Source of the DNA: an uncultured Clostridia bacterium
GTDB taxonomy: Bacteria > Bacillota > Clostridia > Lachnospirales > CAG-274
Direction: 5' to 3'
DNA: 37,479 bases
Assembly (NCBI GenBank): GCA_944381435.1
Contig: CALWLD010000023.1
Location: 1 to 37,479, forward strand
In this document: piece by piece, positions 5,293-22,108 of the stretch
Layout: each line of letters opens with the position of its first letter
Position numbering within the stretch: the first letter of the stretch is position 1
The notes under the pieces: generated by a model
The model's input: only the letters and a program-made list of their open reading frames with translations
The model's database searches: none
What the model was told of the DNA's origin: nothing
Translations under genes and position numbers: made by a program

Positions 5293-5457
5293 ATGAGTAA
5301 AAAATTAATAATAAAAGGAGCAATAATATTAACACTTGCTAATATTATTACCCGTATTTTAGGATTTATATATCGCATATATATGTCCAATTTAATAGGG
5401 GCAGAAGGTATGGGGCTTTATCAACTTATAATGCCTATATATACAAAATGCATATAA
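5293..5457 (+). pseudogene. spoVB: spoVB 5' fragment, interrupted by the serine-recombinase element
   Basis: The ATG at 5293 follows AAGGAG and opens a SpoVB/MATE-like flippase N-terminus, with segments such as GAIILTLANIITRILGF and GAEGMGLYQLIMPIY. Spore-gene similarity stops after codon 50 (Tyr, 5440-5442). From ATAC at 5441-5444 the frame runs into element DNA and stops at 5455-5457. The rest of the protein resumes in frame at 19400, about 14 kb away. SpoVB is a polytopic lipid-II-flippase-like protein needed for spore cortex synthesis. A 54-residue product holding a single membrane segment cannot work, so function needs excision of the element or is lost. Confidence 0.85.
5441..5444 (+). 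other. attL core (ATAC), left junction of the element
   Basis: ATAC spans codon 50 (taT AT part) and codon 51 of the spoVB frame. The same four bases in the same codon phase occur at the right junction. Left flank: cctatat is spoVB; right flank: aaaatgc is element. Confidence 0.65.
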
Positions 5458-5508
5458 TAAGACATAATTAAAAAGGGTTAAAAACTAGGCATTTTATTAT
5501 GTCTTATT
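5456..5508. repeat. 13-bp inverted repeat just inside the left end
   Basis: AATAAGACATAAT (5456-5468) and ATTATGTCTTATT (5496-5508) are perfect inverted arms with a 27-base spacer, 12 bp inside attL. There is no T-tract, so it is not a clear terminator. It may be a recombinase- or accessory-protein site. A 12-bp inverted repeat with the same 27-base spacing lies inside the right end. Confidence 0.6.
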
Positions 5509-5627
5509 GTTGATAAATAGGCTAAATATAAACTGATAACTATGCTAGTGATAGGTAAAATATCTTATATTTTCAGAATAAATCTACTAAAAATCAAATA
5601 TATTAAATTAAAAAAGGGGAAATATTT

Positions 5628-5909
5628 ATGGAAAATAAGTTTTATGTATCAAATGAAGAAATAGAAGCTTATAAAAATATAGATTTTGAAAAATTAAAAA
5701 ATATGGATATAATGGAAGTGAAATTAGAAGATTTAATAGATATTAATGATTTAGATATAGATGATAGCTTACCATATGAAATAAAAATTTTAAAGTTTGT
5801 ACAGCAAATAAAAAATCCATTTTTCTTTAAAGTAGGTAATGTTATAGTAAATAGCACTTACAATGATACTAAAGACAATATTTATATTGAAGATTGTTTA
5901 AGTAAATAA
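5628..5909 (+). CDS. Small acidic protein, DUF6870-like
   Basis: This 93-residue acidic protein is the first gene of the element. Its core, LIDINDLDIDDSLP followed by VQQIKNPFFFKVGNVIVN, resembles from memory the DUF6870 family (pattern DIRDVxIDxxLPxxER...IRQIxNPYCFKxG). That family is often found beside serine recombinases on Clostridia mobile elements. There is no signal peptide and no membrane segment. An AGGGGA ribosome site precedes the ATG. A hairpin at 5921-5985 separates it from the recombinase genes. Its function is unknown; a recombination accessory or directionality role would be a guess based on position. Confidence 0.65.
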   Translation: MENKFYVSNEEIEAYKNIDFEKLKNMDIMEVKLEDLIDINDLDIDDSLPYEIKILKFVQQIKNPFFFKVGNVIVNSTYNDTKDNIYIEDCLSK

Positions 5910-5920
5910 AATATAATTAT

Positions 5921-5987
5921 AAAAATCAACTAGATATATGAAAAGTTTGGGATATACTCTCAAAAAATAAGACAAGTTGATTTTTTT
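5921..5987 (+). terminator. Hairpin with T-run between the small ORF and the recombinases
   Basis: AAAAATCAACT (5921-5931) pairs with AGTTGATTTTT (5975-5985) and the T-run continues to 5987. The loop is long (43 nt). It could be a terminator or attenuator limiting recombinase expression. Confidence 0.5.
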
Positions 5988-6016
5988 GGTTGAAATAATC
6001 ATCGGGAGTGTTAAAA

Positions 6017-7636
6017 ATGAAAATATATAAAGTTGCAATGTATTTAAGAATATCACGAGAAGATAGCAACAAAAATGAAAGTGAAAGCATAATAAATCAA
6101 AAATCTATGATACAATCTTTTATTGATGACAGAGAAGAACTTAAGCTTATATCTATTAAAGTTGATGATGGATACAGTGGGGGTAATTTTGAAAGACCTG
6201 CCTTTAAGGAATTAATGGAAGAAATAAAAGATAGAAAAATAGATTGTGTTATAGTGAAAGATTTTTCTAGGTTTGGACGTAATTTTGTTGAAGTAGGAAA
6301 ATACATAGAAGAGATATTTCCTTTTATGGGCATAAGGTTTATATCTATTAACGATGGATACGATAGCATAAAAAATAATTCTCAAGAAAGCTTAATAGTA
6401 CCATTTAAAAATCTTATAAATGATGCTTATTTAAGAGATATATCTATAAAAGTTAGAAGTCAATTAGATACAAAAAGAAAGAACGGAGAATTTATAGGCT
6501 CTTTTGCTGCCTATGGATATTTAAAAGACCCTAATAATAAAAATAAATTAATTGTAGATGATTATGCCTCAAAAATAGTACAAGAAATATTTGAGATGAA
6601 GCTAGAAGGCTTTTCCCATAGCAAAATAGCAGAAAAGCTAAATAATAAAGGCATTTTATCCCCTAGAGAATATAAAAAACATATAGGCTTAAATTTTAAA
6701 AACTGCCTTAAAGCTAAATCTGTAAATTTATGGAGCCATAAAACAGTAATTGATATATTGAAAAATCCTGTTTATATTGGGATATTAGAACAAGCAAAAT
6801 ATACAACTTTAAATTACAGAGTTAAAAAATTAATTAAAAATCCTAGAGAAAAATGGTTAATTTGTGAAGATACACACGAGGCTATAATAGATAAACAAAT
6901 TTTTGAAAATGTGCAGAAACTTATGCTTTCAGACACAAGGGTAGCACCTAATAATGAAAAGGTAGCTTTATTTTCTGGGATTTTATTTTGTGGAGACTGC
7001 AAAAGAAGTATGATAAGAAAAAATTATGGCACAAAGGAAAAACGATATATTTATTATGTTTGTTCTGGAGCTGTTAAAAAAAACGGTTGCACTAGGCGTT
7101 CTATTAGAGATAAAGTTTTAGAAAAAGCTGTATTAGAAACAATAAAAATACATATAAAAACTTTATTAGACACAGAAAAAATATTAAAATCTATAAAAAA
7201 AATACATTGTAGTGAAAAACAAATAAAAAGTATTGATGTAAATATTAGCATTGGAGAAAAAGAAATTGAAAAATTAAAAGAATATAAATTTAAAGTATAT
7301 GAAGATTATAAAAATGATATATTAGATAAAAATGAATATGATAAATATAACGGTATAATAGATAAAAAAATTGAAAATATACAAAAATCAATAGAAGATT
7401 TTAAGTTAAAATTAGATGATTTAATAAATGGAAACAAACACCAAGAAGAACTAACTAAATATTTACATAAATATAAAGATATTAAAGAACTAGATAGAAA
7501 GTTAGTTGTTTCTTTAATTGATAAAATTTATGTTTATGAAAATTTAAGAATATCTATAAAGTTTAAGTTTGATGAGAAATATGTACAAATAATAAATCTT
7601 TTAAATAATTTAAAAGATTTAAAGGAGGTTATTTGA
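6017..7636 (+). CDS. Large serine recombinase 1
   Basis: This is a 539-residue site-specific DNA integrase/excisionase of the resolvase-invertase superfamily. The N-terminal catalytic domain (about 1-150) has the nucleophile Ser13 in YLRISRED, then DDGYSGGNFERPAF and VKDFSRFGRNF with active-site arginines. A recombinase domain follows (about 165-290), then a zinc ribbon (about 315-365; CGDC and later CSG...C), a coiled coil (about 410-470) and a short C-terminal domain. The ATG at 6017 follows GGGAG at 6004-6008; an in-frame GTG at 6008 overlaps that site and is rejected. It ends in TGA two bases before the next recombinase. No key residue is missing, so it appears active. Confidence 0.9.
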   Translation: MKIYKVAMYLRISREDSNKNESESIINQKSMIQSFIDDREELKLISIKVDDGYSGGNFERPAFKELMEEIKDRKIDCVIVKDFSRFGRNFVEVGKYIEEIFPFMGIRFISINDGYDSIKNNSQESLIVPFKNLINDAYLRDISIKVRSQLDTKRKNGEFIGSFAAYGYLKDPNNKNKLIVDDYASKIVQEIFEMKLEGFSHSKIAEKLNNKGILSPREYKKHIGLNFKNCLKAKSVNLWSHKTVIDILKNPVYIGILEQAKYTTLNYRVKKLIKNPREKWLICEDTHEAIIDKQIFENVQKLMLSDTRVAPNNEKVALFSGILFCGDCKRSMIRKNYGTKEKRYIYYVCSGAVKKNGCTRRSIRDKVLEKAVLETIKIHIKTLLDTEKILKSIKKIHCSEKQIKSIDVNISIGEKEIEKLKEYKFKVYEDYKNDILDKNEYDKYNGIIDKKIENIQKSIEDFKLKLDDLINGNKHQEELTKYLHKYKDIKELDRKLVVSLIDKIYVYENLRISIKFKFDEKYVQIINLLNNLKDLKEVI

Positions 7637-7637
7637 G

Positions 7638-9311
7638 ATGGCTAGAAAAAGCAGAATTAACTTAAACTTAAATTGTAATAAAAAAATATTTAAAGTTGGA
7701 GCTTACGTTCGCATTTCAGTTTTAAATAACAATACAGATGATGAAAACACTATTGAAAATCAAAAAAACATAATTTTAAATTATATAAATAATAATAATG
7801 ATTTTAAATTAGTAAATATTTATGAAGATAATAATAAAACAGGTACAAATTTTGATAGGGTAGGATTTGAAAGTCTTTTAGAAGATATAAGAAATAAAAA
7901 AATAAATTGTATTATAGTGAAAGATTTATCTAGGTTTGGACGAGATTATAAAGAATGTAGCAATTATATTGAAAATATTTTACCATTTTTAAATGTAAGG
8001 TTTATAGCTATTAATGATAATTTTGATAGTGCAGATATAAAAAATAATGATATATTATTGGTGCAACTTAAAAACATTGTAAATGAAATATATTCAAAAG
8101 ATATTTCAAAAAAAGTTTTATCTGCTTTAAATTCTAAAAGAAAAAAGGGGCAATATTTATGTAATATGCCTACTTATGGATATTTAAAAGATAGGGAAAA
8201 CAAGGGAAAAATAATCATTGATGATGATGCAAGCCAAGTTGTTAAAAAAATTTTTGATTGGCGTTTACAATATAAAAGTTATAATGAAATATTATTTGAG
8301 CTTGAAAGCCTAAATATAGATGCACCCTATAAACATTTCTATAATTTAGGTCTTTTTAAAACAGAAAAATATGCCAATATAAAATGGAACAAAGAATCTA
8401 TTAATAGAATTTTAAATAATGATTTTTACATAGGAAGATTAACACAAGGAAAAACTTCTCAAACAGTAAATAACAACTATAAAAAAATAAAATTACCTAA
8501 AGAAAAATGGATAGTTATAGAAAACAATCACATACCAATAATAGATGAAGACATATTTTATAGGGTTCAAAAAATAAATGAACAATTAAAACAAAAACAT
8601 TTTAAAGAGCATAATAAAAACGTAAATGAAGAAAATATTTTAAAAGGGGTTATAAAATGTGGATATTGTGGTAAAAATATTAGATTAGTTAAAATTACAA
8701 AAAAAAATAAATTTAAAGAAAATCCTATAGATAAAAGATTTGTTTGCTGTACAAAATTAAAATATAAAGATAGATGTAATTTTAAAAGCATTAAAGAAGA
8801 TATTATTTTAAACGTTGTTTTACAAAGTATAAAACTACAATTAAGACTTGTTAAAGATATAGGTGAAATAGTTAAAAGTGAAAAATATTTATCTAAATTT
8901 GAGCTAGAAAAAAATACAATAAAAGATAAAATAAATAAAATAAACATAGAAATAGCTAGCCTTAATAATATATACGACACTATGTATAATAATTATTTAG
9001 ATAATTTATTAAGCAAGGAAGATTATATTTATAACAAAAATAAGTACAAGCAAAAAGAAGTAAAACTTAAAAATGATTTAATACAATTAAATAAAGATTT
9101 AAGAAAAAATAAAGAAAGATTAAATGATAAAAATTTTATAGATAAATTTTTAATGTTTGAAGAAAAAGAAATTTTAAATAGAGAAACAATATTAAAACTA
9201 ATAGAAAATATAGTTATATATGATGATAAAAAAATAAAAATAAGTTTTAAATTTTATGATAGATTTGATGAAATAAAAAGTTGTTTAGATAGTGAGGAGG
9301 GTTGCTTTTAA
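7638..9311 (+). CDS. Large serine recombinase 2
   Basis: This 557-residue paralogue of the preceding gene has a short N-terminal extension, the catalytic Ser27 in YVRISVLNN, and VKDLSRFGRDY. A recombinase domain (about 175-310) is followed by a zinc ribbon with CGYCGKNIR and two further cysteines in KRFVCCTKL. A long lysine/asparagine-rich coiled coil (about 425-500) follows. AAAGGAGG at 7621-7628 sits inside the end of gene 1, so translation is coupled. Its stop (TAA 9309-9311) overlaps the ATG of gene 3. Divergence from genes 1 and 3 suggests different tasks, for example complementary subunits binding different half-sites, but the sequence does not prove that. Confidence 0.9.
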   Translation: MARKSRINLNLNCNKKIFKVGAYVRISVLNNNTDDENTIENQKNIILNYINNNNDFKLVNIYEDNNKTGTNFDRVGFESLLEDIRNKKINCIIVKDLSRFGRDYKECSNYIENILPFLNVRFIAINDNFDSADIKNNDILLVQLKNIVNEIYSKDISKKVLSALNSKRKKGQYLCNMPTYGYLKDRENKGKIIIDDDASQVVKKIFDWRLQYKSYNEILFELESLNIDAPYKHFYNLGLFKTEKYANIKWNKESINRILNNDFYIGRLTQGKTSQTVNNNYKKIKLPKEKWIVIENNHIPIIDEDIFYRVQKINEQLKQKHFKEHNKNVNEENILKGVIKCGYCGKNIRLVKITKKNKFKENPIDKRFVCCTKLKYKDRCNFKSIKEDIILNVVLQSIKLQLRLVKDIGEIVKSEKYLSKFELEKNTIKDKINKINIEIASLNNIYDTMYNNYLDNLLSKEDYIYNKNKYKQKEVKLKNDLIQLNKDLRKNKERLNDKNFIDKFLMFEEKEILNRETILKLIENIVIYDDKKIKISFKFYDRFDEIKSCLDSEEGCF

Positions 9312-10792
9312 TGCCTTCTAGCTATTTGATAGGGATATATTTAAGGATTTCAAAGGAAGATAAAAATAAATGTAAAGATAAAGAAAGTAATAGCATAGAA
9401 AACCAAAGAGACATTGTATACAATTTTATAAACAACAAAAAAGAATTTATAAATTTTAAAGTTTTTGAATATATAGATGATGGCTATTCTGGGACAGACT
9501 TTAAAAGACCTAATATACAAAGGTTATTTGAGGACATAAAAGAAAATAATATAAATTGTATAATAGTAAAAGATTTATCTAGGTTTGGAAGAAACTACAT
9601 AGAGGTTGTAAACTATTTAGAAAATATACTACCGTTTTTTAATGTAAGATTTATAGCTATTAACGATAATTTTGATAGCAAAAATTCAAAATATAATTTA
9701 AATGATATAGATATAAATTTTAAAAACATAATATATGATTATTATTCTAAAGATTTATCTAGCAAAATAATGAGTAGCAAAATAAATAAAGCTAAACAGG
9801 GAAATTATTTAGGACATATAGCCCCTTTTGGTTATAAAAAATCTAAAAAACAAAAAGGTAAGCTAGAAATAGATGAAGAAACATCATTGATAGTTAAAAA
9901 GATTTTTAGGTTGTTTTTAGAGGGTAATAGCTGTTTACAAGTAGCTAAAATATTAAATCAAAACAACGTTAAAACAAGGTTAGATTTTATAAACAAAACA
10001 ACAACTGCAAATAATTTATGGAAAAGAGAACATATTAGAGAAATATTATCAAACAAAGTTTACATTGGCACATTACAATATTTAAGGACTAGCAAAAGCA
10101 TAAAAACTAAGCATAAGCAAGTAACTAATGATAAAAAAGATTGGATTGTAGTAGAAAACTGCCATAAAGAAATTATATGTAAAGAAGATTTTTACAAAGT
10201 ACAAGATATGTTAAATACAAAAAAGATAACAAAAAATAGAGAAAGAAAAAATATTTTTGCCTATAAATTATATTGTGGTTATTGTGGTTATTCTCTTTAT
10301 AATTCTAGCAAAAAATACTTTTGTAGAACAATGAAATATGGATATAGCAAACATTGTAAAGATAACATAATTGAAAAAAATACTCTTGAAAACGCTGTAT
10401 TAAAAGCTATTCAAAAAATAGTGTTTGATGTATTAAATAAAAATAATAACAACCTAAAATATGAAATAAATCTATATGAAAAAAAACTTACTAAACTTGA
10501 TGATGAAAAAGATAAAATGTATATGTTATATTTAAATGAGGATATGAACAAGGAAGAATATTTGACAAATCGTAAAAATATAGAAGAAAGAAAAAAATAT
10601 ATAGCTGATAAAATAGAAGCTTTAAAAAATGAAACTAGAAAATACATAAAGTTAGATGGTATGGAAAAAGTTATTTATGAGGATAAGTTAACCTATGAAA
10701 TGGTAGATTTATTTATAAAGAAAATATATGTATATAACAAGGACAAAATAAAAATAGATTGGAATTTTAACATAGATTTTCTATCTTTATAA
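9311..10792 (+). CDS. Large serine recombinase 3
   Basis: This 493-residue protein is the third tandem member. It has Ser14 in YLRISKED, DDGYSGTDFKRPN, VKDLSRFGRNY, a recombinase domain (about 165-290), a zinc ribbon starting CGYCGYSLY, and a coiled coil (about 375-440). The ATG at 9311 overlaps the preceding stop and follows GAGGAGG at 9294-9300. A TTG in frame at 9302 lies within that site and is rejected. Its last codons (VYNKDKIKID, 10726-10755) are nearly repeated in the decayed fragment at 19302-19370 near the right end. The three genes form one operon closed by a terminator at 10880-10939. Confidence 0.9.
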   Translation: MPSSYLIGIYLRISKEDKNKCKDKESNSIENQRDIVYNFINNKKEFINFKVFEYIDDGYSGTDFKRPNIQRLFEDIKENNINCIIVKDLSRFGRNYIEVVNYLENILPFFNVRFIAINDNFDSKNSKYNLNDIDINFKNIIYDYYSKDLSSKIMSSKINKAKQGNYLGHIAPFGYKKSKKQKGKLEIDEETSLIVKKIFRLFLEGNSCLQVAKILNQNNVKTRLDFINKTTTANNLWKREHIREILSNKVYIGTLQYLRTSKSIKTKHKQVTNDKKDWIVVENCHKEIICKEDFYKVQDMLNTKKITKNRERKNIFAYKLYCGYCGYSLYNSSKKYFCRTMKYGYSKHCKDNIIEKNTLENAVLKAIQKIVFDVLNKNNNNLKYEINLYEKKLTKLDDEKDKMYMLYLNEDMNKEEYLTNRKNIEERKKYIADKIEALKNETRKYIKLDGMEKVIYEDKLTYEMVDLFIKKIYVYNKDKIKIDWNFNIDFLSL

Positions 10793-10827
10793 TATATATT
10801 AATGATAGTTTATTAAATTTACTATTT

Positions 10828-10856
10828 GATGTGGTGATAGGTACATAGGCTACATC
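10828..10856 (+). other. Small hairpin carrying GTGATAGGTA
   Basis: GATGTGG (10828-10834) pairs with CTACATC (10850-10856). The arm and loop contain GTGATAGGTA (10834-10843), which also occurs at 5548-5557 ahead of the first element gene. Function unknown. Confidence 0.4.
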
Positions 10857-10879
10857 AACAATATTAAAGTTTTAAAAAA

Positions 10880-10939
10880 GGGTTTTGAATGCTACAGTTT
10901 ATGGATAGGTGGTAATGTAGATTCAAAGCCTATTTTTTT
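10880..10939 (+). terminator. Terminator of the recombinase operon
   Basis: GGGTTTTGAAT-g-CTAC (10880-10895) pairs with GTAGATTCAAAGCCT (10917-10931), with two G-U pairs and one bulged G, followed by seven T residues. It insulates the arginine operon from recombinase transcription. The rest of 10793-11182 holds only the small hairpin before it and the argC promoter. Confidence 0.8.
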
Positions 10940-11103
10940 ACAAGAGGATTTGACATATTTATTTTAACAATACGTATATCTTTATTTTTTAACTTAAAAT
11001 TTATAAACAGTTTAGGTTTTAATTTTTAGAGAATAAAAACAGTATTAATACATATTTTTAAGTTATTGAATTAAAAATTTTACAATAAAATCATAAAAAA
11101 TAC

Positions 11104-11131
11104 TTGACTTATAAAAAAATAGGTGTATAAT
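11104..11131 (+). promoter_or_regulatory. Promoter of the arginine operon
   Basis: TTGACT (11104-11109), a 16-base spacer and TATAAT (11126-11131). The predicted transcript starts near 11138, about 45 nt before argC. Confidence 0.7.
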
Positions 11132-11166
11132 TATGTATAAAAAAACAAAAATATATTATAATTATG
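11126..11166. promoter_or_regulatory. Two TATAATTATG repeats, possible ArgR operator
   Basis: The 10-mer TATAATTATG occurs at 11126-11135, overlapping the -10 box, and again at 11157-11166, 31 bp later (three helical turns). Each contains the palindrome ATAATTAT and loosely resembles an AT-rich ARG box. No ArgR is encoded in the window. The assignment is inference. Confidence 0.35.
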
Positions 11167-11182
11167 CAATAGAGGATTTGGT

Positions 11183-12115
11183 ATGAAAAGTGTTTTTATT
11201 GACGGAAGTAGCGGAACTACTGGCTTAAGGTTAAAAAATAGGTTAGAACAAAGAAAAGATATAAAGCTAATAAATATAGATGAAAAATACAGAAAAGATA
11301 TTAGCTACAGAAAAGAGGCAATAAATAAATCAGATATTACAATATTATGTTTGCCAGATGAAGCATCAAAAGAGGCTATCAAATTATTAGATAATGACAA
11401 TACTGTAATAATGGATACATCTACTGCTCATAGAACTAACAAAGATTGGGTATATGGCTTACCACAATTAAACAATGAACAAAAAGAAAAAATAAGAACA
11501 TCTAAAAAAATAGCTATACCTGGTTGCCACGCTTGTGGCTTTATAAGCTTAGTTTATCCTTTAGTTTATAACAAAATAATAGATAGTGAAGAAAATATAA
11601 GTTGTTTTTCTATAACAGGTTATAGCGGTGGTGGCAAAAGTATGATAGAAGAATATGAAAAAGAAAATTTAGATGATTTATTAAAAGCACCTAGATTATA
11701 TGCTTTAGAACAACAACACAAACACTTAAAGGAAATGATTTATAAAACAGGATTAAAAAATCCACCTATATTTTCTCCAATAGTTTCTAATTTTTATAGT
11801 GGAATGCAGGTTGTAATAAATTTATCTAAAAATCAAATAAATAAAGGTTTTTCTATATATGACATAATAAATACATATAAAAATCATTATAAAGATGAAG
11901 TAATACAATATAAACAAGAACATAATGAAAATGGATTTTTATCTACAGCTTACCTTTCTAACAAAGATAGTATGCAGATAACACTGCAAGGAAACGAAGA
12001 AAGATTTTCCTTAATAGCAAGATATGATAATTTAGGAAAAGGAGCTTCAGGCTCTGCTTTAGAGTGTTTAAACATTGTTTTAGGTGTTGAACAAACATTA
12101 GGATTAGAATTATAG
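11183..12115 (+). CDS. argC: N-acetyl-gamma-glutamyl-phosphate reductase
   Basis: This enzyme catalyses the third step of arginine synthesis: NADPH reduction of N-acetylglutamyl phosphate to the semialdehyde. The protein has 310 residues, the shorter ArgC form. The nucleotide-binding start is FIDGSSGTTGLRL (about 5-17), with the catalytic cysteine in IPGCHACGF (about residue 114) and the substrate motif TGYSGGGKSMI. The GAGG before ATG 11183 is a modest ribosome site. It is first in a seven-gene operon inside the mobile element. The end overlaps the ribosome binding site of argJ. Confidence 0.92.
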   Translation: MKSVFIDGSSGTTGLRLKNRLEQRKDIKLINIDEKYRKDISYRKEAINKSDITILCLPDEASKEAIKLLDNDNTVIMDTSTAHRTNKDWVYGLPQLNNEQKEKIRTSKKIAIPGCHACGFISLVYPLVYNKIIDSEENISCFSITGYSGGGKSMIEEYEKENLDDLLKAPRLYALEQQHKHLKEMIYKTGLKNPPIFSPIVSNFYSGMQVVINLSKNQINKGFSIYDIINTYKNHYKDEVIQYKQEHNENGFLSTAYLSNKDSMQITLQGNEERFSLIARYDNLGKGASGSALECLNIVLGVEQTLGLEL

Positions 12116-12126
12116 GAGATTTAAAA

Positions 12127-13338
12127 ATGAAGATAATAAATGGTGGAGTATGTGCCCCTAAAGGTTTTTTATCTAGTGGAGTACATTGTGGAATTAGAAA
12201 AAATAAAGATAAAAAAGATTTAGCATTAATATATAGTGAAAATATTGCTAATGTAGCTAGTGTATATACATTAAATGAAGTTAAAGGCGCACCAATAATT
12301 GTAACTAAAGAAAATATTAAAGATGGTAAGGCTCAAGCTATTATTTGCAACAGTGGCAATGCTAATACTTGTAATGCAGATGGAATATATATAGCAAAAA
12401 AAATGTGTGAATTAGTATCTAACCAGTTAAATATAAAACAAGCAGATGTAGTTGTGGCTTCAACAGGTGTTATAGGGGTTCCCTTAGATATAAACCCTAT
12501 ATCTAAAGCTATGCCTAATTTAGTAGAAAGTTTAGGAGACAATTCTAAAGATACTGCAAATGCTATTATGACAACGGATACAAAAATAAAAGAAATAGCA
12601 TTAGAATTTTATATAGGAGATAAGCTATGTAAGATAGGTGGTATAGCAAAAGGCTCTGGTATGATACATCCAGATATGGCTACAATGCTTGTTTTTATAA
12701 CAACAGATTGTGCTATCAGCTCTAAAATGCTTCAAAAAGCACTTTCTACGGATATAAACGAAACATTTAATATGCTAAGCGTAGATGGAGATACATCTAC
12801 CAATGATATGGTTACAATATTAGCTAACGGTAAGGCAGAAAACATAGAAATAACTGAAGAAAATGAACATTTTAACATATTTATGAAAGCTTTAAACACA
12901 GTAAACATATATTTAAGCAGGTGCATTGCAGGAGATGGAGAAGGTGCTACCAAATTATTAGAATGTAAAGTTTTTGGTGCATCAAATAAAAACATAGCTA
13001 AAAACATAGCTAAAAGTATTATTTGTTCATCTTTAGTTAAAACTGCTATGTTTGGGGCAGATGCCAACTGGGGAAGAATACTATGTGCAATAGGATATAG
13101 CAAAGAAAATGTTAAAATAGACAAAATAGATGTTTCTTTTAAATCTAAAGTAGGAGAAATACAAGTATGCAAAAATGGTAATGGAATAGCTTTTGATGAA
13201 GATTTAGCTAAAAAGATACTTTTAGAAGAAGACATAGAGATAATAGTAAACCTAAATGATGGAGATGCATATTCTACATCTTGGGGTTGTGATTTAACCT
13301 ATGATTATGTAAAAATAAATGGAGATTATAGAACTTAA
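12127..13338 (+). CDS. argJ: Bifunctional glutamate N-acetyltransferase/ornithine acetyltransferase
   Basis: ArgJ transfers the acetyl group from N-acetylornithine to glutamate, making the pathway cyclic; bifunctional forms can also start it from acetyl-CoA. The protein has 403 residues. The self-cleavage site KGSGMIHPDMATML (about 175-189) holds the nucleophilic Thr just after MA. The oxyanion region CNSGNANTCNADG (about 78-90) is intact. With ArgJ present, neither argA nor argE is required, which matches their absence from the operon. AGGAG overlaps the argC stop codon. Confidence 0.93.
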   Translation: MKIINGGVCAPKGFLSSGVHCGIRKNKDKKDLALIYSENIANVASVYTLNEVKGAPIIVTKENIKDGKAQAIICNSGNANTCNADGIYIAKKMCELVSNQLNIKQADVVVASTGVIGVPLDINPISKAMPNLVESLGDNSKDTANAIMTTDTKIKEIALEFYIGDKLCKIGGIAKGSGMIHPDMATMLVFITTDCAISSKMLQKALSTDINETFNMLSVDGDTSTNDMVTILANGKAENIEITEENEHFNIFMKALNTVNIYLSRCIAGDGEGATKLLECKVFGASNKNIAKNIAKSIICSSLVKTAMFGADANWGRILCAIGYSKENVKIDKIDVSFKSKVGEIQVCKNGNGIAFDEDLAKKILLEEDIEIIVNLNDGDAYSTSWGCDLTYDYVKINGDYRT

Positions 13339-13360
13339 TTTAATAGGAGAGTGTTATTCT

Positions 13361-14221
13361 ATGAATATTTGTAACAAAGTTAGAGCAGAAATATTAGTTA
13401 ATGCATTACCATATATAAAAAGCTATAGCGGAAAGATTGTAGTTGTAAAATATGGCGGAAACGCTATGGTAAATAATGAGTTAAAAAACTCTGTTATGGA
13501 AGACATAGTTTTAATGTGGTTAGTTGGTATAAAAGTTGTTTTGGTGCACGGTGGAGGGCCAGAAATATCAAATATTTTAGAAAAATTTGGTAAAGAAACA
13601 AAATTTATAGATGGTTTAAGACAAACAGATAAAGAAACAGCAGAAATTGTTCAAATGGTACTAGCTGGTAAAGTAAATAAAGAGTTAGTTAATTTAATAC
13701 AGGTAAAAGGTGGGCAAGCAATAGGTTTATCAGGTGTAGATGGACATATGATATTAGCTAATAAAAAAGATGAAAGGTTAGGATATGTAGGAGATATTAA
13801 AAAGATAAATGCTAAAGTAATACTAGATGTTATTGAAAAAGGATACATACCTATAATATCTACAGTTGGCTGTGATGAAAATGGAGACATTTATAACATA
13901 AATGCAGATACAGTTGCAGCTAAGATAGCAGGAGAGCTAGAGGCAGAAAGTTTTATAAATATGACAGATATTAGTGGAATATTAAAAGATAAAGATGATG
14001 CATCTACATTAATACCTAAAATAAATATAGAAGAAGCTAAATCATTAATGAACAATGGGACAATTTATGGTGGAATGATACCAAAGGCAGAATGTTGCAT
14101 TAATGCTATAAATTGGGGAGTGAAAAAAGTATTTATTATTGATGGAACAATACCTCACGCTATATTGATAGAAACATTGACAGATGAAGGTATAGGAACT
14201 ATGTTTGTAAAGGAGAATTAG
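13361..14221 (+). CDS. argB: N-acetylglutamate kinase
   Basis: ArgB phosphorylates N-acetylglutamate (second step). The protein has 286 residues from the ATG at 13361, preceded by AGGAGA at 13345-13350. The frame is open further upstream into argJ, but those starts lack a ribosome site. Amino-acid-kinase motifs are VVKYGGNAM (ATP phosphate binding), LVHGGGPEIS (substrate glycine loop) and INADTVAAKIAGEL. In many bacteria this is the arginine-feedback step; feedback status cannot be judged here. Confidence 0.93.
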   Translation: MNICNKVRAEILVNALPYIKSYSGKIVVVKYGGNAMVNNELKNSVMEDIVLMWLVGIKVVLVHGGGPEISNILEKFGKETKFIDGLRQTDKETAEIVQMVLAGKVNKELVNLIQVKGGQAIGLSGVDGHMILANKKDERLGYVGDIKKINAKVILDVIEKGYIPIISTVGCDENGDIYNINADTVAAKIAGELEAESFINMTDISGILKDKDDASTLIPKINIEEAKSLMNNGTIYGGMIPKAECCINAINWGVKKVFIIDGTIPHAILIETLTDEGIGTMFVKEN

Positions 14222-14223
14222 CT

Positions 14224-15399
14224 ATGAGTATAAAACAACTAGACAATATATATGTATCAAATACATATAAAAGGTTTCCTGTATGCATAAAAGAGGGAAA
14301 AGGCTCTATTTTAAAAGATGACAAAGGAAAAGAATATATAGATTTAGGAAGTGGCATAGCGGTAAATACATTTGGAATGTGTGATGAAAAATGGATAGAA
14401 GATGTAACTAACCAGCTTAATAAACTAACACATACTTCTAATTTATACTATACAGAACCTTGTGTTGAATTAGCTAAAATATTATGTGAAAAAACAAATA
14501 TGAAAAAAGTTTTTTTCTCAAATTCTGGTGCAGAGGCTAATGAATGTGCTATAAAGGTAGCTAGAAAATATGCAAGCATTAAAAAGGGAGAAGAATATTA
14601 TAATATTATAACATTAAAAGGGAGCTTTCACGGCAGAACGATAACAACTCTTTCAGCAACAGGACAAGACGTTTTTCACACCCAGTTTAAACCGCTTACA
14701 CAAGGGTTTTTATATGCAAGCCCTAACAATATAGAAGAAATAGAAAATATATTAAAAAATAACAAATGTGCAGGCATAATGATTGAGATTGTTCAAGGTG
14801 AAGGTGGTGTAAATTGTTTAGAAGAAGAATATCTTAAAAAGCTAGAAAATCTAGCACATAAATATGATTTAGTTTTAATAATAGATGAAGTTCAAACAGG
14901 AAACGGTAGAACAGGGAAGCTTTTTTCATATATGCATAGTGGAATAATACCAGACATAGTAACAACGGCAAAAGGGCTTGGTGGAGGATTACCTATTGGT
15001 GCAACTATTTTAGGAGACAAAGTAAAAGATATATATACATATGGTGACCACGGCTCTACATTTGGCGGTAACCCTATTTGCTGTGCTGGTGCTATTAGCG
15101 TTATTAAAAGATTAGATGAAGGCTTTTTAAAAGAAGTTTTAGAAAAATCAAAAATTATTTATGATATGTTAAAAGATACAAAAGGGATAACATCAATTAG
15201 TGGGTTAGGGTTAATGATTGGCATAGAAAACCAAAAAGATGCAGATGAAATTATAAATAGGTGTATAGAAAATGGTGTTTTAGTTTTAAAGGCTAAAAAT
15301 AAAATTAGGCTATTGCCACCCCTTAATATAGAAAAAGAAAATCTTATAAAAGCATTAGAAATATTAAAGAAAATTTGTGAAGAAGATGAAGAAGAGTAG
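14224..15399 (+). CDS. argD: Acetylornithine aminotransferase
   Basis: ArgD is a PLP enzyme of the class III aminotransferases that converts N-acetylglutamate semialdehyde to N-acetylornithine. The protein has 391 residues, with SNSGAEANECAIKVARKY (cofactor phosphate site), LIIDEVQTGNGRTGKLF (aspartate contacting PLP) and the Schiff-base lysine in TTAKGLGGGLPIGA. A strong AAAGGAG sits at the end of argB, two bases before the ATG region, so translation is coupled. Confidence 0.92.
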   Translation: MSIKQLDNIYVSNTYKRFPVCIKEGKGSILKDDKGKEYIDLGSGIAVNTFGMCDEKWIEDVTNQLNKLTHTSNLYYTEPCVELAKILCEKTNMKKVFFSNSGAEANECAIKVARKYASIKKGEEYYNIITLKGSFHGRTITTLSATGQDVFHTQFKPLTQGFLYASPNNIEEIENILKNNKCAGIMIEIVQGEGGVNCLEEEYLKKLENLAHKYDLVLIIDEVQTGNGRTGKLFSYMHSGIIPDIVTTAKGLGGGLPIGATILGDKVKDIYTYGDHGSTFGGNPICCAGAISVIKRLDEGFLKEVLEKSKIIYDMLKDTKGITSISGLGLMIGIENQKDADEIINRCIENGVLVLKAKNKIRLLPPLNIEKENLIKALEILKKICEEDEEE

Positions 15400-15409
15400 G
15401 TGATAAAAT

Positions 15410-16393
15410 ATGAATTTAAAAGGTAGAAATTTTTTAAAGTTATTAGATTTTAAAACAGAAGAAATAAGCTATCTTATAGATTTTGCTAAAATTTTAAAAT
15501 CAGAGAAAAAAGCAGGTATTAAACATAAGCTATGCGAAGGAAAAAATATTGTATTATTATTTGAAAAAACAAGCACCCGTACTCGTTGTGCATTTGAAGT
15601 TGCAGGTAAAGATTTAGGCCTTGGCGTTACATATTTGGAGCCTACAACATCACAGATGGGAGATAAAGAAAGTATAGAAGATACAGCAAAAGTACTTGGA
15701 AGAATGTATGACGGCATAGAATATCGAGGGTTTTCTCAAGATACAGTAGAAAAAATAGCTAAATATGCAGGTGTTCCAGTATGGAATGGGCTAACAGATG
15801 AATTTCACCCAACACAAATATTGGCAGATTTTTTAACTATACAAGAACAATTAGGAAAATTAAAAGGTGTTAATTTTGTATATATGGGTGATGCAAGATT
15901 TAATATGGGTAATTCTTTAATGGTTGGTTGTGCTAAAATGGGTATAAATTTTACTGCTTGCACCAATAAAAAATATTTTCCTAAAAAAGAATTAATAGAT
16001 ACTTGTTTAGAAATAGCTAAAGAAACAGGAGCTAAAATATGTTTTGAAGAAGACGTTGAAAAAGCTACAAAAAATGCAGATGTAATATATACTGATATTT
16101 GGGTATCTATGGGAGAATCTAAAGAAATATGGCAAGAGCGTATAAAAGATTTATTACCTTATCAAGTTAATAAAAAAGTTATGGATAATGCAAAAAAAGA
16201 TGCTATATTTATGCATTGTTTACCAGCTTTTCACGATAGAGAAACAACAATAGGAAAGGAAATAGGAGAAAAATATAATCTTAATGGATTAGAGGTAACA
16301 GATGAAGTTTTTAGAAGCAGTCAATCTGTTGTTTTTGAACAGGCAGAAAATAGAATGCATACAATAAAAGCTGTTATGGCATCAACTTTATAA
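15410..16393 (+). CDS. argF: Ornithine carbamoyltransferase
   Basis: ArgF makes citrulline from ornithine and carbamoyl phosphate. The protein has 327 residues. The carbamoyl-phosphate motif is [12 protein letters not shown] (about 52-63), followed by [10 protein letters not shown] (about 131-140) and the ornithine-binding MHCLPAFHD (about 267-275). The STRTR form is the usual ornithine enzyme signature. The element has no carbamoyl phosphate synthase, so ArgF must draw on host CarAB, encoded at 30397-34693. A catabolic role is unlikely given its place between argD and argG and the absence of arcA or arcC. Confidence 0.93.
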
Positions 16394-16422
16394 AATTATA
16401 AAATAGATAGGAGATAAAAATT

Positions 16423-17634
16423 ATGAAAAAATATAACAAAGTTGTTTTAGCATATTCAGGTGGGTTAGATACATCTATAATAATATCTTGGTTAAAAGAA
16501 AATTATGGTTGTGAAGTAATATGTGTATCTGGAAATGTTGGGCAAGACGATGAGCTAGAAAATTTAGAAGAAAGAGCATTAAAATCTGGTGCATCAAAGC
16601 TATATATAGAGGACATACAAGAAGAATTTGTTTATGACTTTATTTTCCCTACATTAAAAGCAGGTGCTAAATACGAAAATTATTTATTAGGAACTGCTTT
16701 TGCAAGACCACCTATAGCTAAAAGAATTGTTGAAATCGCTAAAAAAGAAAATGCAGATGCAATATGCCACGGTTGTACAGGCAAGGGCAATGACCAAGTT
16801 CGTTTTGAGCTTACAATAAAGGCTTTTGCACCAGATATGCCTATAATAGCTCCTTGGAGAGAGTGGAATATTAAATCTCGTGATGAAGCCATAGAATATG
16901 CAATTTCTAAAAATATACCTATAAAAATAACTAAAGAAACAAACTACTCTAAAGATATGAATTTATGGCATTTATCTCACGAAGGGTTAGATTTAGAAAA
17001 TATAGAAAACGAACCTTTATATAACAAAGAAGGCTTTTTAGAGCTAGGAGTTTCTCCAGAAAAAGCACCAGATACACCTACATATATAGAAATTTATTTT
17101 GAAAAAGGTATACCAACAAAATTAAATGGAATAGAAATGAACGGGGTAGATTTAATTAAAAAATTAAATAAAATAGGTGGAGAAAATGGTGTAGGTTTAT
17201 TAGATTTAGTTGAAAATAGGCTGGTAGGTATGAAATCTCGTGGCTTATATGAAACACCAGGAGGCACTATTTTATATCACGCACATCAAGTTTTAGAAAC
17301 AGTTTGTCTAGATAAAAACACTCAACATTATAAACAAAAATTAGCACTAGAATTTGCAGATTTAGTATATAATGGTTTATGGTTTACGCCTTTAAGAGAG
17401 GCTATGAGTGCTTTTGTAGACGAAACTCAAAAAACTGTAACAGGAAGTGTAAAATTAAAACTATATAAAGGAAATATAATAAATGCTGGTATAAAATCAG
17501 ATTATAGCTTATATAGCGAAGAAGTTGCTACTTTTAATGAAGATGATGTTTATAACCAAAAAGATGCAGAAGGTTTTATCAATTTATTTGGCTTACCTAT
17601 AAAAGTTAAAGCACAAATGGATAATAAAAAATAA
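16423..17634 (+). CDS. argG: Argininosuccinate synthase
   Basis: ArgG condenses citrulline and aspartate using ATP. The protein has 403 residues with the N-type ATP pyrophosphatase loop [11 protein letters not shown] (about 9-19), [13 protein letters not shown] (about 117-129) and [17 protein letters not shown] lies before the ATG at 16423. It is sixth in the operon, 29 bp after argF. Confidence 0.95.
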
Positions 17635-17648
17635 AAGGAGTTTTTGTT

Positions 17649-19022
17649 ATGGCAAAAATGTGGGCAGGTAGATTTAAAAAAGATGTAGATAACAAAGTAA
17701 ACGACTTTAATAGCTCAATATCTTTTGATAGCGTTATGTATAAAGTTGACATATTAGGTAGCATTGCACATTCCAAAATGTTAGCAAAACAAGGGATAAT
17801 AAATGAAGAAGAGTCAAACTTGATAGTAGATGAATTAAATAACATATTAAATGACATAGAAAATGGCAATTTATCTTTTGATTATGAAGCAGAAGATATA
17901 CATATGTTTATAGAAAAAGAATTGACAACTAGGATAGGTGATGTTGGTAAAAAGGTTCATACAGCAAGAAGCAGAAATGACCAAGTTGCTTTAGATATAA
18001 GAATGTACTTAAAAGAAAACATACAAGAATTAATTTATCTATTAAAAAATTTATGCAATGTTTTATGCAATATATCACAAGATAACTTACATACTGTTAT
18101 GCCAGGATATACCCATTTACAAAGAGCACAACCTATAACTTTTGCACACCATATAATGGCTTATGCTCAAATGTTTATAAGAGATATAGATAGATTAAAA
18201 GATTGTTATAAAAGAACCAACGTAATGCCTTTAGGCAGTGGTGCTTTAGCTACAACCACTCATAATATAGACAGAGAATTTGTATGCCAGTTATTAAATT
18301 TTCAAGAAATAACCAAAAATAGTTTAGATTCTGTATCAGATAGAGATTTTTGCATAGAACTTGCTAACGATATTGCTATGATAATGATGCATTTATCTAG
18401 GTTTTCAGAAGAAATAATAATGTGGTGCTCTTGGGAGTTTAAGTTTATTGAACTAGACGATGCTTATTCAACAGGCTCTAGCATTATGCCTCAAAAGAAA
18501 AATCCAGATATAGCAGAGCTTGTAAGAGGAAAAGCAGGGAGAACAATAGGTAATTTGAATACGATTTTATGTATGATGAAAGGTTTACCTTTAGCATATA
18601 ATAAAGATATGCAAGAAGATAAAGAAGCTATATTTGATTCTGTAAATACAGTAAAAGTTTGCCTAGAAACTTTTACTGCTATGATAGAAAATATGACGGT
18701 ATTAAAAGAAAATATGAAAATAGCAGCAAATAAGGGATTCATAAATGCAACAGATTGTGCAGACTATCTTGTTAAAAAAGGTATTCCTTTTAGAGACGCT
18801 TATAAAATAACAGGGGAATTAGTTTTATACTGCATAGAAAATAATAAAACTTTAGAAAAATTATCATTACAAGAATATAAATCTTATTGCCAGTTATTTG
18901 AACAAGATATTTTTAATGATATAGACTTATTAAATTGTGTTACTAAAAGAAATATATCAGGTGGACCATCTCCAGAACAAGTACAAATACAAATAAACGA
19001 TATTAAAAAACAAATTTTATAA
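17649..19022 (+). CDS. argH: Argininosuccinate lyase
   Basis: ArgH cleaves argininosuccinate to arginine and fumarate (last step). The protein has 457 residues of the fumarase/aspartase superfamily: HTARSRNDQVALD (about 104-116), PGYTHLQRAQPITFAHH, and the signature GSSIMPQKKNPD with catalytic serine (about 278-289). AAAAGGAG precedes the ATG. It is the last gene of the operon, followed by about 190 bp and a strong terminator. Confidence 0.95.
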   Translation: MAKMWAGRFKKDVDNKVNDFNSSISFDSVMYKVDILGSIAHSKMLAKQGIINEEESNLIVDELNNILNDIENGNLSFDYEAEDIHMFIEKELTTRIGDVGKKVHTARSRNDQVALDIRMYLKENIQELIYLLKNLCNVLCNISQDNLHTVMPGYTHLQRAQPITFAHHIMAYAQMFIRDIDRLKDCYKRTNVMPLGSGALATTTHNIDREFVCQLLNFQEITKNSLDSVSDRDFCIELANDIAMIMMHLSRFSEEIIMWCSWEFKFIELDDAYSTGSSIMPQKKNPDIAELVRGKAGRTIGNLNTILCMMKGLPLAYNKDMQEDKEAIFDSVNTVKVCLETFTAMIENMTVLKENMKIAANKGFINATDCADYLVKKGIPFRDAYKITGELVLYCIENNKTLEKLSLQEYKSYCQLFEQDIFNDIDLLNCVTKRNISGGPSPEQVQIQINDIKKQIL

Positions 19023-19123
19023 TATTTTAAAATATGCTATTTTTATAGTATTATAATAAAAAGTAAAATTTAAAGGTTAAACTTTATTACTAAAAACATA
19101 CTATATTATATAGCTTGCGAGAT

Positions 19124-19174
19124 AACCATTTATATAAAAGTTTTCATAAAAAAGTTATTGCCATATAAATGGTT
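19124..19174. repeat. 12-bp inverted repeat near the right end
   Basis: AACCATTTATAT (19124-19135) and ATATAAATGGTT (19163-19174) are perfect inverted arms with a 27-base spacer, 222 bp inside attR. The spacing equals that of the inverted repeat inside the left end, although the arm sequences differ. Confidence 0.55.
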
Positions 19175-19215
19175 TATGTTGAAAATAAATATTTAAAAAG
19201 AAAAATTAATTATGT

Positions 19216-19257
19216 AAAAAGGCTAACTAATAATTATTTATTAGTTAGCCTTTTTTT
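19216..19257 (+). terminator. Terminator of the arginine operon
   Basis: GGCTAACTAATAA (19221-19233) and TTATTAGTTAGCC (19238-19250) form a perfect 13-bp stem with a 4-base loop and seven T residues, flanked by A's on the other side. Confidence 0.88.
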
Positions 19258-19301
19258 GTACAATATAGTATATTGATAACTTGTTATATTATTTTTAAAA
19301 C

Positions 19302-19370
19302 AAATATTATGTATATGACAATGACAAAATAAAAATAGATTGTAATTTTTATTTTGATTTTAATAATTAA
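19302..19370 (+). pseudogene. Decayed 3' end of a fourth serine recombinase gene
   Basis: Codons 19302-19370 read KYYVYDNDKIKIDCNFYFDFNN-stop in two pieces comparable to the end of recombinase 3 (KIYVYNKDKIKID, then WNFNIDF). At the DNA level ACAAAATAAAAATAGATTG is shared. An in-frame stop lies just upstream (19296) and no other recombinase sequence is present, so only about 23 codons of a tail remain, 26 bp inside attR. Confidence 0.75.
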
Positions 19371-19395
19371 AAAAATTATTTCCTGTCTTTACAAC

Positions 19396-19399
19396 ATAC
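19396..19399 (+). other. attR core (ATAC), right junction of the element
   Basis: Left flank tttacaac is element; right flank tatgttagcttgg is spoVB. ATAC occupies the same codon phase as at attL, so joining restores the spoVB frame. Confidence 0.65.
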
Positions 19400-20759
19400 T
19401 ATGTTAGCTTGGAGTATATCATCATCAGGATTTTCTACAACTATATCAAAGCTTGTGGCAGAAGAAAATTGTAAAAGAGAGTATGGTAATATAAAGCGTA
19501 TTTTACACATTTGTATATTTTTATCTGGTTTAATAGCTTGTTTAATAAGTATTTTTATATTTATGTCTTCTGAATATATAGCTAATAATATATTAAAAAA
19601 TGAAAATACTTTATTGTCATTACATATTATGTGCATATCTTTTCCTTTTATGGCAATAGGTTCTTGTATAAGAGGATATTTTTTAGGTATGCAAGATACA
19701 ATAGTGCCTGCTATAAGTCAGGTTTTAGAGCAGGTATCTAGAATGATTGTAATATATCTTTTAGCATCTACATTTATACCTCTTGGCTTATCTTATGCTT
19801 GTGCTGTTGGTGTTATAGGTATGTGCGTTGGGGAAATTTTTTCATTTTTATATGTTTTAATGATATATAATACAAAAATAAAAAAAGGTAAAAGCAATAA
19901 ATCTGTAATAAAATATACTAGCATAATATTAGCTATGGCTATACCTTTAACAGCTAATAGAGTTTTAGGTTCTTTCTTTAGCACAATAGAAAATGTTTTA
20001 ATACCACAAAAATTGATGGAATATGGATATAATGATACAGAGGCTATGAGCTTATATGGGCAACTTAGCGGTATGTCTATGCCTCTTGTTATGTTTCCAT
20101 CATCTCTTTTGACAGCTCTTGCTATAGCCATTGTTCCTGCTATATCAGAGGCATTAGCAAAAAATAATATAAACTTAATAAGGTTAACTATATCTAAAGC
20201 ATTTACCGTAACCTGTTTTATAGGCATAGGTACAGCTGGGCTTTTTATATTTTTTTCTAACCAATTAGGATATACTATATATTCCCAACAGGATATAGGT
20301 TGGCAACTTTTATACATAGGGTTTTTATGTCCATTTTTATATTTGCAAGTTACATTTTCTGGCATATTAAACGGTTTAGGAGAACAAATGTTAATATTTA
20401 AAAATAGCATTTTATCTTCTATAATAAACATTTGTTTTATATATTTTTTTATACCTAAATATGATTTATATGCCTTTATATTAGGTTGGTTTTTAAGCTT
20501 AATTTTAATAAACTTTATATCTATATTAAAATTAAAACAAAAAACAAATTTTAAAATAGATATTTTTAATAGCATATTAAAGCCTATGCTTTGTATATTA
20601 TCTAGTGGTATTGTTGCTAAATATTGCTATAAAATGTTAATTTTATCTTATGGAAATATTTTTTCCATTATAATTACAATATTAATTTTTGCACTATTAT
20701 ACATTATTTTATTAATTTTAGTGGGAGCTTTAGATAAAAAAGATTTAAGGTTATTTTAA
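19400..20759 (+). pseudogene. spoVB: spoVB 3' fragment, remainder of the interrupted gene
   Basis: From 19400 the frame encodes the rest of a SpoVB-type polysaccharide/lipid flippase: MLAWSISSSGFSTTISKLV, then about eleven to twelve hydrophobic helices and SIRGYFLG-like and AIVPAISEALA segments typical of the MurJ/MATE superfamily. An ATG at 19401 has no ribosome binding site before it, so this half is probably not translated by itself. Joined to codons 1-50 it gives about 503 residues, close to normal SpoVB length (about 500-530). No frameshift or stop spoils it, which argues for recent insertion or for regular excision. Confidence 0.87.
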
Positions 20760-20842: not shown

Positions 20843-22108
20843 ATGCAAAAATTAAAAGGATATATAATTGTTTTAGGTATAATATTAGTTAGCTTAATTT
20901 TTATTATACCTATTTTAATAAATTTTATTTTTTTCCCTAGTAATATAAATATATTAGCAGGTAATACACATAAATTACATTTTAATATACCAGCGGTTGC
21001 AACAATAGTATCTAGTGATGAAAGCGTTTTAAAGGTTAATGATGAAAATTTATATAATAAAGATAACATAAACCTTAATGATACATTATATTTACAATCG
21101 GAAAAAGAAGGTTATGTTAAAATGAAAGTTTCTTTAATGGGTATACCTATTAAAGATGTTACAGTATCTGTTTTACCTAATGAGAAACTAATACCTAGTG
21201 GAGAATCTGTTGGTGTTAGGATAGATACACAAGGTGTTATGGTTCTTGGAATTGGAAGCGTAATTGGTGATGATGGTAAAGAATATGAAATAGCTAAAGA
21301 TATATTAAAACCAGGAGATATGATTTTAAAAGTAAATGATACACCTATTGATAGTAAAGAAACATTGATTAAATGTATTGAAAGTTATGATAGCTTAAAT
21401 ATGGAAATAAAAAGAAATAATATTATACAAAATGTTAATATAAACTGTATAAAAGGGCAAGATGGCAAAAATAAAATAGGTGTTTGGGTTAGAGATAGCA
21501 CACAAGGTATAGGTACACTAACGTATATAAACCCTAAAGAAAAGACTTTTGGAGCATTGGGACACGGTATTGTTGATGTAGATACAAAAGAAATAATGGA
21601 AGTGCAAGATGGCAAGATAATGAAATCTGAAATAGTTGATGTTAAAAAAGGTGAAAAAGGAAAACCAGGTGAGTTAATAGGTAATATACAAAAAAATGAA
21701 GAAATTGGTAAGATTAAAAATAATACAAATTTAGGTATATATGGCAAAATAGAAGATGATAAATATATAAATGAAAAAAATGCTATACCTATTGGACTTA
21801 AAGATAGTGTAGAGATAGGTAAGGCATCTATACTTTGTAATATAGATGGAACAGAGGCTAAAGAATATGACATAGAAATAGAAAGCATAAATAAATATAA
21901 TATAGATAATTCTAAATCTATGGTTATAAAAATAACCGATGAAAAATTATTAAATAAAACAAATGGAATAATACAAGGTATGAGCGGTAGCCCTATAATA
22001 CAAAATGGTAAAATAATAGGTGCTGTAACCCACGTTTTTGTAAATGACCCATCAAAAGGATATGGAATATTTATTGAAAATATGTTAGAGGCTGAAAAAG
22101 GGCAGTAA
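20843..22108 (+). CDS. spoIVB: SpoIVB signalling serine protease
   Basis: SpoIVB is made in the forespore, acts in the intermembrane space, and triggers processing of pro-sigma-K in the mother cell. The protein has 421 residues: an N-terminal membrane anchor (about 6-32), a PDZ domain (about 125-205, around VMVLGIGSVIGDDGKEYE and LKPGDMILKVNDTPID), and the S55 peptidase domain. The catalytic His is in FGALGHGIVD and the Ser in GMSGSPIIQNGKIIGAVTH. GGAAGG precedes the ATG. It lies 83 bp after spoVB. In most spore formers spo0A follows spoIVB, but here it does not. The presence of an intact spoIVB suggests the sporulation programme is still kept. Confidence 0.93.
   Translation: MQKLKGYIIVLGIILVSLIFIIPILINFIFFPSNINILAGNTHKLHFNIPAVATIVSSDESVLKVNDENLYNKDNINLNDTLYLQSEKEGYVKMKVSLMGIPIKDVTVSVLPNEKLIPSGESVGVRIDTQGVMVLGIGSVIGDDGKEYEIAKDILKPGDMILKVNDTPIDSKETLIKCIESYDSLNMEIKRNNIIQNVNINCIKGQDGKNKIGVWVRDSTQGIGTLTYINPKEKTFGALGHGIVDVDTKEIMEVQDGKIMKSEIVDVKKGEKGKPGELIGNIQKNEEIGKIKNNTNLGIYGKIEDDKYINEKNAIPIGLKDSVEIGKASILCNIDGTEAKEYDIEIESINKYNIDNSKSMVIKITDEKLLNKTNGIIQGMSGSPIIQNGKIIGAVTHVFVNDPSKGYGIFIENMLEAEKGQ

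Follow-up and report, generated by a model that had tools for sequence, protein, structure and literature searches.

The window analyzed here, a 37,479-nucleotide stretch of contig CALWLD010000023.1 from an uncultured Clostridia bacterium (Lachnospirales, CAG-274), contains the sporulation gene spoVB in two pieces. Its sequence, read together with the empty sites of congeners, places the interruption after codon 50, where an element of 13,958 bp with three intact large serine recombinases separates the start of the gene from the rest. The 5′ piece translates as MSKKLIIKG...MPIY and, past the junction, runs through TKCI into a stop codon; positions 19401-20759 encode the remaining 452 amino acids, and spoIVB follows at 20843. 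Both pieces are open and in frame. The SpoVB profile TIGR02900 gives the 3′ part (hereafter spoVB3) 284.4 bits on its own and the joined protein 363.5 bits over profile positions 2-488. The joined protein thus scores like the whole SpoVB of relatives (367.3 bits in genome G003 and 354.5 bits in genome G014), all four scores lying below the profile's cut-off of 372.3. The one other match to spoVB3 in the genome at E ≤ 0.001 is a paralogue of 28% identity. The original prediction, made from the letters of this DNA, had described two undecayed fragments of a single SpoVB at these places, split by a serine-recombinase element of about 14 kb, and this description holds.

Close comparison of the two ends defines the crossover point. 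The left end reads CCTATATA-TA-CAAAATGC and the right end ACATAC-TA-TGTTAGC, and four congeners with an empty site read CCTRTATA-TA-TGYTWGC (host-TA-TG(T/C)T), translated PIY-MLAWS. Joining the window's ends at TA yields this same PIY-MLAWS and a single frame of 502 codons. Serine recombinases cross over at 2 bp. Because the four empty congeners match the TA join, we assign TA as the core, without an additional threonine. ATAC, which had been proposed as the common junction to give PIY-T-MLAWS and about 503 codons, is ruled out, since it adds a threonine codon absent from all four; the predicted residue count was therefore one too high. The empty-site sequences support the central claim that exact removal would restore spoVB. 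Within each end region we found no direct repeats of 12 bp or longer. The excised circle would measure 13,958 bp.

The genus comparison of spoVB covered eight genomes, G000 to G007, G000 being that of the window. The empty site is present in four of them (G001 contig 33, G002, G003 contig 73 and G007 contig 22), two of these copies being partial: the one in G001 starts at codon 9, and the one in G007 ends at codon 22. The relatives with an empty site that the original prediction had called for thus exist. Six genomes carry an occupied site (G000, G001, G003, G004, G005 and G006, that is, five congeners besides G000), and G001 and G003 display both states. The arms at these junctions are similar. 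Left junctions of the form TA-N9-TATAATANGNCNTANT occur in G001, G004 (two), G005 and G006, and right junctions of the form TTTCCTGTCTT-N10-TA in G003, G004 and G005; G001 and G006 contribute a left junction only, G003 a right junction only, and in G005 the two lie on different contigs. Over 222 bp of spoVB3, the occupied contig of G003 differs from the empty contig of the same genome by 1 mismatch, versus 33 from G001 and 38 from G000. The G001 pair is unclean, with 9 differences in 126 positions between its 5′ alleles. In G002, no full recombinase module appeared among the matches listed, the best of which reached E 2.9e-13 over about 130 bp. A locus at 542187 in G004 (L044, G004:C1:542187-542297), considered as a second working 5′ end, is decayed and far from spoVB, and we rejected it.

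Inside the element (Table 1), three recombinase open reading frames (ORFs) follow one another in one direction, all of them open. As predicted, they are large serine recombinases; the distance from the left end to the first of them is about 570 bp (560 bp in the prediction). All three keep the invariant serine, arginine and zinc-ribbon cysteine columns that they share with six further recombinases, taken from G003 and G090; which of these residues are catalytic is generally established for such enzymes. The DUF6870 ORF ahead of them is conserved beside recombinase modules of relatives, and it has seven homologues in the protein database. Downstream, the TrbL_4 protein of G007 aligns with 10701-11250 (tblastn, E 1e-9) across stops and a frame shift, and this decayed fragment is the only conjugation machinery in the element. 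A site-specific recombination module with attachment (att) sites is present. The main-strand ORFs of at least 60 amino acids are the DUF6870 gene, the recombinases and the arginine genes described below; no phage gene was recognized among them, a phage library not having been searched. No Rfam family at gathering score and no tRNA gene (ARAGORN) was found in the window, and plasmid records gave two weak matches to the recombinase DNA. Two segments, 10807-10936 (which corresponds to the trbL fragment) and 10980-11028, match DNA at many sites in the genus genomes.

Table 1. Features of the split spoVB locus, in window coordinates
Feature	Positions	Strand	Basis
Sigma-E-like promoter block of spoVB, GAATATT-N-CATATATTAA	5240..5270	+	Conserved in genus alignment
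spoVB 5′ piece: codons 1-50 and first base of codon 51	5293..5443	+	ORF reading, genus comparison
Left crossover dinucleotide TA	5442..5443	+	Alignment to empty sites
Left element arm N9-TATAATAAGACATAAT, with inverted repeat 5456-5472 / 5492-5508	5444..5508	+	Sequence
Promoter-like block GAATA-N17-ATATATTAA, recombinase operon	5576..5606	+	Pattern search
DUF6870 protein, 93 amino acids, candidate directionality factor	5628..5909	+	PF21757, 69.8 bits; role from position only
Large serine recombinase 1	6017..7636	+	Resolvase, Recombinase and Zn_ribbon_recom domains; invariant Ser/Arg/Cys columns
Large serine recombinase 2	7638..9311	+	Domains, invariant columns
Large serine recombinase 3	9311..10792	+	Domains, invariant columns
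Decayed trbL (conjugation gene) fragment	10801..10940	+	tblastn with G007 TrbL_4 protein
Sigma-A-like promoter TTGACT-N16-TATAAT before argC	11104..11131	+	Read from sequence
argC	11183..12115	+	Semialdehyde dehydrogenase domains, operon position
argJ	12127..13338	+	TIGR00120, 465.8 bits, over cut-off
argB	13319..14221	+	TIGR00761, 253.3 bits, over cut-off
argD	14224..15399	+	TIGR00707, 443.1 bits, over cut-off
argF	15410..16393	+	TIGR00658, 419 bits, over cut-off
argG	16423..17634	+	Argininosuccinate synthase domains
argH	17649..19022	+	Lyase_1 and ASL_C2
Second copy of the recombinase 3 3′ tail, 87% to 10742-10780	19323..19361	+	Sequence
Right element arm TTTCCTGTCTT-N10	19379..19399	+	Same arm adjoins spoVB3 in G003, G004, G005
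Right crossover dinucleotide TA	19400..19401	+	Alignment to empty sites
spoVB 3′ piece: codons 51-502 and stop	19400..20759	+	ORF, TIGR02900, genus comparison

The remaining cargo is a run of seven genes, argCJBDFGH, which fills 11183-19022 behind a promoter that we take to be of the sigma-A class; the original prediction did not mention it. Two of the eight genus genomes, G000 and G001, have argJ, and it was not found in six of the seven congeners (one of the eight genomes is 81% and one 89% complete). Between G000 and G001, argJ is 97% identical and spoVB3 78%, and the next best argJ among the 61 genomes searched, at 61%, lies outside the family. Synonymous divergence (dS) for this pair is 0.15 in argJ versus 0.74 in spoVB3, so the arginine operon has likely moved horizontally, as judged from these sequence comparisons. 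We found no support for the view that it is an old locus of the genus, given its presence in two of eight genomes and the gap between 97% and 78% identity. In G001, the operon (93-96% DNA identity) sits outside the element, directly 5′ of an occupied spoVB 5′ piece, whose occupant is a ParA-type element (L071:1-7705 on contig 46; L102:12360-12852 on contig 110).

In G004, assembled as a single contig, two elements cut spoVB into three pieces: a 118-nt 5′ piece that ends in GAAGG-TA at 1472201, a 33-nt middle piece (1409279-1409247) and a 3′ piece from 1384425 with an ORF of 454 amino acids. These pieces lie 62,921 and 24,821 bp apart with a recombinase module in each gap, and joining them at both TAs gives MSKNLIIKG...AEGMGLYQLIMPIYMLAWS in an unbroken frame (first 192 codons joined). 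The left element of the pair entered at another TA, which lies about 30 bp farther upstream than the usual TA. A pattern that runs from right arm to left arm, as joined element ends would, matched three times in the eight genomes at ≤2 mismatches, each match having 2 mismatches; the reversed control matched once. The sole match with known arms, CTTCTTGTCTTGACATCATAA-TA-CTTTGTTGATATAATAAG on G007 contig 29, has a recombinase module alongside, and its arms resemble those at the right and left ends of the larger element in G004; the other two matches are in G003 and G004.

G007 contig 18 bears the DUF6870-recombinase module and the same kind of arms together with a T4SS-DNA_transf coupling protein, TrbL_4, a TraG-type ATPase, ParA and ParB. 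We rejected this contig as a closed circle, its ends being without overlap. On it, a segment that starts within recombinase 2 and extends as far as the right end has been inverted; each breakpoint has a TA, and such a rearrangement would need joined ends as its partner. Because the window holds a dead trbL and the G007 element combines conjugation genes with such ends, the window element is likely a reduced integrative conjugative element (ICE), that is, ICE-derived and not itself an ICE. Its simplest origin would be a conjugative element, or two in tandem, cut down by deletions. One ORF of the G007 conjugative element (L117:8635-9570, G007:C18:23635-24570) resembles, by eye and over its first residues, a class A beta-lactamase lipoprotein.

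The promoter regions offer a possible link between the element and sporulation. The block upstream of spoVB fits the Bacillus subtilis sigma-E consensus, so that we class it as sigma-E-like, and the pattern AATATTN{12,15}CATATATT occurs once in the window versus 0.03 expected. Of the related pattern GAATA-N16/17-ATATATTAA, the window has two copies (0.01 expected), one at spoVB and one before the recombinase operon; the 2.16-Mb genome has four in all, and the remaining two fall inside ORFs. Twelve stretches yielded eight DUF6870 genes, and the block precedes six of them exactly. The Spo0A_C and SigK models score over cut-off in all eight genus genomes. Among 14 controls, the SigK model matches 11 and exceeds its cut-off in none, B. 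subtilis included, whose sigK is split by skin.

Selection on the split genes was measured by the pairwise Nei-Gojobori ratio of nonsynonymous to synonymous divergence (dN/dS). For spoVB3 in the genus, the ratio is 0.16-0.18 when the three split copies are compared with one another, 0.13-0.25 for the four whole copies, and 0.15-0.27 when split copies are paired with whole ones; for spoIVB it is 0.12-0.24. More informative is a pair of genomes from another family (f17), G090 and G117, in which the same 7.6-kb element cuts spoVB at codon 48; besides ilvD and a GntR-like regulator, it encodes three recombinases, which lie on the opposite strand. Between the two genomes, spoVB3 has a dN/dS of 0.07 at a dS of 0.73, and the 47 codons of the 5′ piece have 0.027 at a dS of 0.33; the ratio is 0.17-0.20 for the recombinases and 0.016 for ilvD. 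Both halves of spoVB are thus under strong purifying selection in this pair. The common gene content suggests that the insertion predates the species split; if it does, both halves have long been maintained while apart.

We think it probable that the arginine-carrying, likely ICE-derived element that splits spoVB excises at TA in the sporulating mother cell, which would restore the gene at the time of need. A sporulation sigma factor, probably sigma-E, would act on the promoter block that resembles that of spoVB and switch on the recombinases together with the DUF6870 protein. Recombination between the two ends, carried out by one or more of these proteins, would then yield a circle and an intact spoVB. 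For the mother cell, which dies anyway, the arginine genes would be lost, and the forespore would retain the integrated copy. An element that sheds its conjugation genes but keeps its recombinases and cargo would parallel the path from prophage to skin. Both the excision in this strain and its timing are steps that we infer.

Several observations weigh against this reading. Neither the empty site nor the circle was observed in G000 itself, where the joined-end pattern has no match. The empty and occupied contigs that share a metagenome bin could come from different strains. The ends of G007 contig 29 do not overlap, so its joined element ends agree with a tandem array as well as with a circle. 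The promoter motif was chosen after both sites had been seen, and in the operon copy an A replaces the C of the sigma-E −10 CATA; for these two reasons we treat the common block only as a lead. The reversed GAATA pattern matches the genome once, versus four times for the pattern itself, and the block is absent at two of the eight DUF6870 loci, the two most distant ones. The DUF6870 protein is an unproven candidate for the directionality factor: its predicted model is of modest confidence (mean predicted local distance difference test score, pLDDT, 75.6) and has no fold match at E 0.001. Lastly, the dN/dS of spoVB3 within the genus is uninformative if the insertions are recent, and it cannot date them.

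The strongest competing explanation, which we nevertheless regard as unlikely, is an ordinary mobile element that uses spoVB as its attachment site, with rare unregulated excision and carriers that mostly sporulate badly or not at all. The coupling, TrbL, TraG-type and ParA/ParB proteins of the relative's element are what such an element would carry, and the occupied and empty alleles found together in two bins agree with it as well. It sits poorly, however, with a window element that retains only a dead conjugation fragment yet three open recombinases, with the promoter-like block common to the recombinase operon and spoVB, and with the strong constraint on both halves in G090 and G117, which is unexpected for a useless split gene. 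Very improbable, in our view, is a recent irreversible insertion, in which spoVB would be dead and its halves undecayed for want of time. The undated genus insertions and the missing joined end in G000 leave room for it, but the element is old enough to have lost its conjugation genes, to carry a decayed trbL and to have duplicated a recombinase tail; moreover, related ends occupy the same site in five congeners, and empty and joined forms exist. That flanks were wrongly joined to the element during assembly or binning is barely credible even for a 38-contig draft, since independent genomes, among them the single-contig G004, show left and right junctions of the same form.

Among 294 genomes sampled from the order, 205 had a match at 1e-60, and 11 genomes outside the genus among the matches listed were inspected. 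Six of the eleven fit a DNA element: G090 and G117 (codon 48), G009 and G151 (codons 137-138), and G203 and G158 (codon 279). The pieces of G151 and of G203 are on separate contigs, and in G158 only a 5′ piece was seen, which ends near the contig end. In G090, G117, G009, G151 and G203, serine recombinase genes are located within the gap or close to the break, those of G117, G151 and G203 being identified by eye. The others were set aside: adjacent pieces in shifted frames point to likely frame shifts in G047, G224 and G226, G127 has one frame, and G078 has a group II intron. More tentatively, and with less than even confidence, we propose that spoVB may be an order-wide docking gene, used by recombinase elements whether conjugative or not. 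These would be cost-free by virtue of a host-like mother-cell promoter on their recombinase operon, leaving when the gene is needed and being kept in the spore. Some may by now be carriers of amino-acid genes without conjugation (arg here, ilvD elsewhere), and two may stack and leave in turn.

Elements of this class are known. The nearest is gin, a 28.6-kb element that interrupts gerE in Bacillus cereus ATCC10987 and has a shared sequence of 9 bp; like the window element, it lacks phage genes, splits a sporulation gene and encodes three serine recombinases, and its precise join restores the frame, as is predicted here (PMC5595907). Its girAB and girC lie apart, and GirC with the 42-residue GirX suffices; the paper also discusses possible conjugation remnants (PMC5595907). 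Unlike in gin, the window recombinases are consecutive and follow a DUF6870 ORF, spoVB is the gene that is split, TA forms the shared core, and the element carries an arginine operon. A second paper names as host genes sigK (skin), spsM (SP-beta), spoVFB (vfbin), yabG (yin) and gerE, and describes integrated and excised forms of yin coexisting in one culture (PMC10747680). Like skin, SP-beta, vfbin and yin, which are removed to restore their genes, the window element is a serine-recombinase element in a sporulation gene; unlike it, those four are prophages or prophage-like and have host genes other than spoVB (PMC10747680). An engineered ICEBs1 with the SP-beta recombination unit integrates into spsM, again pairing a conjugative element with a sporulation gene as attachment site; that construct is laboratory-made with one recombinase, whereas the spoVB elements described here are found in natural genomes (PMC6957869).

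No element in spoVB was described among the literature matches listed, in a search whose coverage excludes most subscription journals. As far as that search reaches, the new features are spoVB as host gene, the kinship with conjugative elements, two elements stacked in one gene, and arginine genes as cargo. The spore-gene elements named in the papers cited here are mostly phage-like, and a single genus here displays several stages side by side: some elements combine such ends with conjugation genes, one spoVB holds two elements at once, and one element is a stripped arginine carrier. The transition from mobile element to developmental switch thereby becomes testable, as does the carriage of biosynthetic genes on DNA that the mother cell would discard. 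If excision is indeed timed to sporulation, the element would be a developmental switch that bears metabolic genes.

The breaks outside the genus differ in their details. The element of G090 and G117 has near-perfect inverted ends, GCTGTTTTTAATAAGG (L126:1037-8900; L171). In G009, an insertion of about 7.9 kb, with a 202-residue serine resolvase and a helicase-like ORF, divides spoVB at codon 137 (L127:5127-7485, L129), and the ends of the element look inverted (ACATACATTACTA / TAGTAATGTATG). G151 (L175, L176) is broken at codon 138, with a recombinase frame that runs off the end of one contig and another that starts on the second; an ORF between these is rubrerythrin-like. G203 (L172:2003, L173:2981) and G158 (L174) are two species of one genus whose pieces end at codon 279, and G203 has three recombinase-like ORFs within 5 kb of the break. 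The group II intron of G078 (L185:1137-1827; RF02004, RF00029) lies before the spoVB 5′ region and is a self-removing insertion of another kind.

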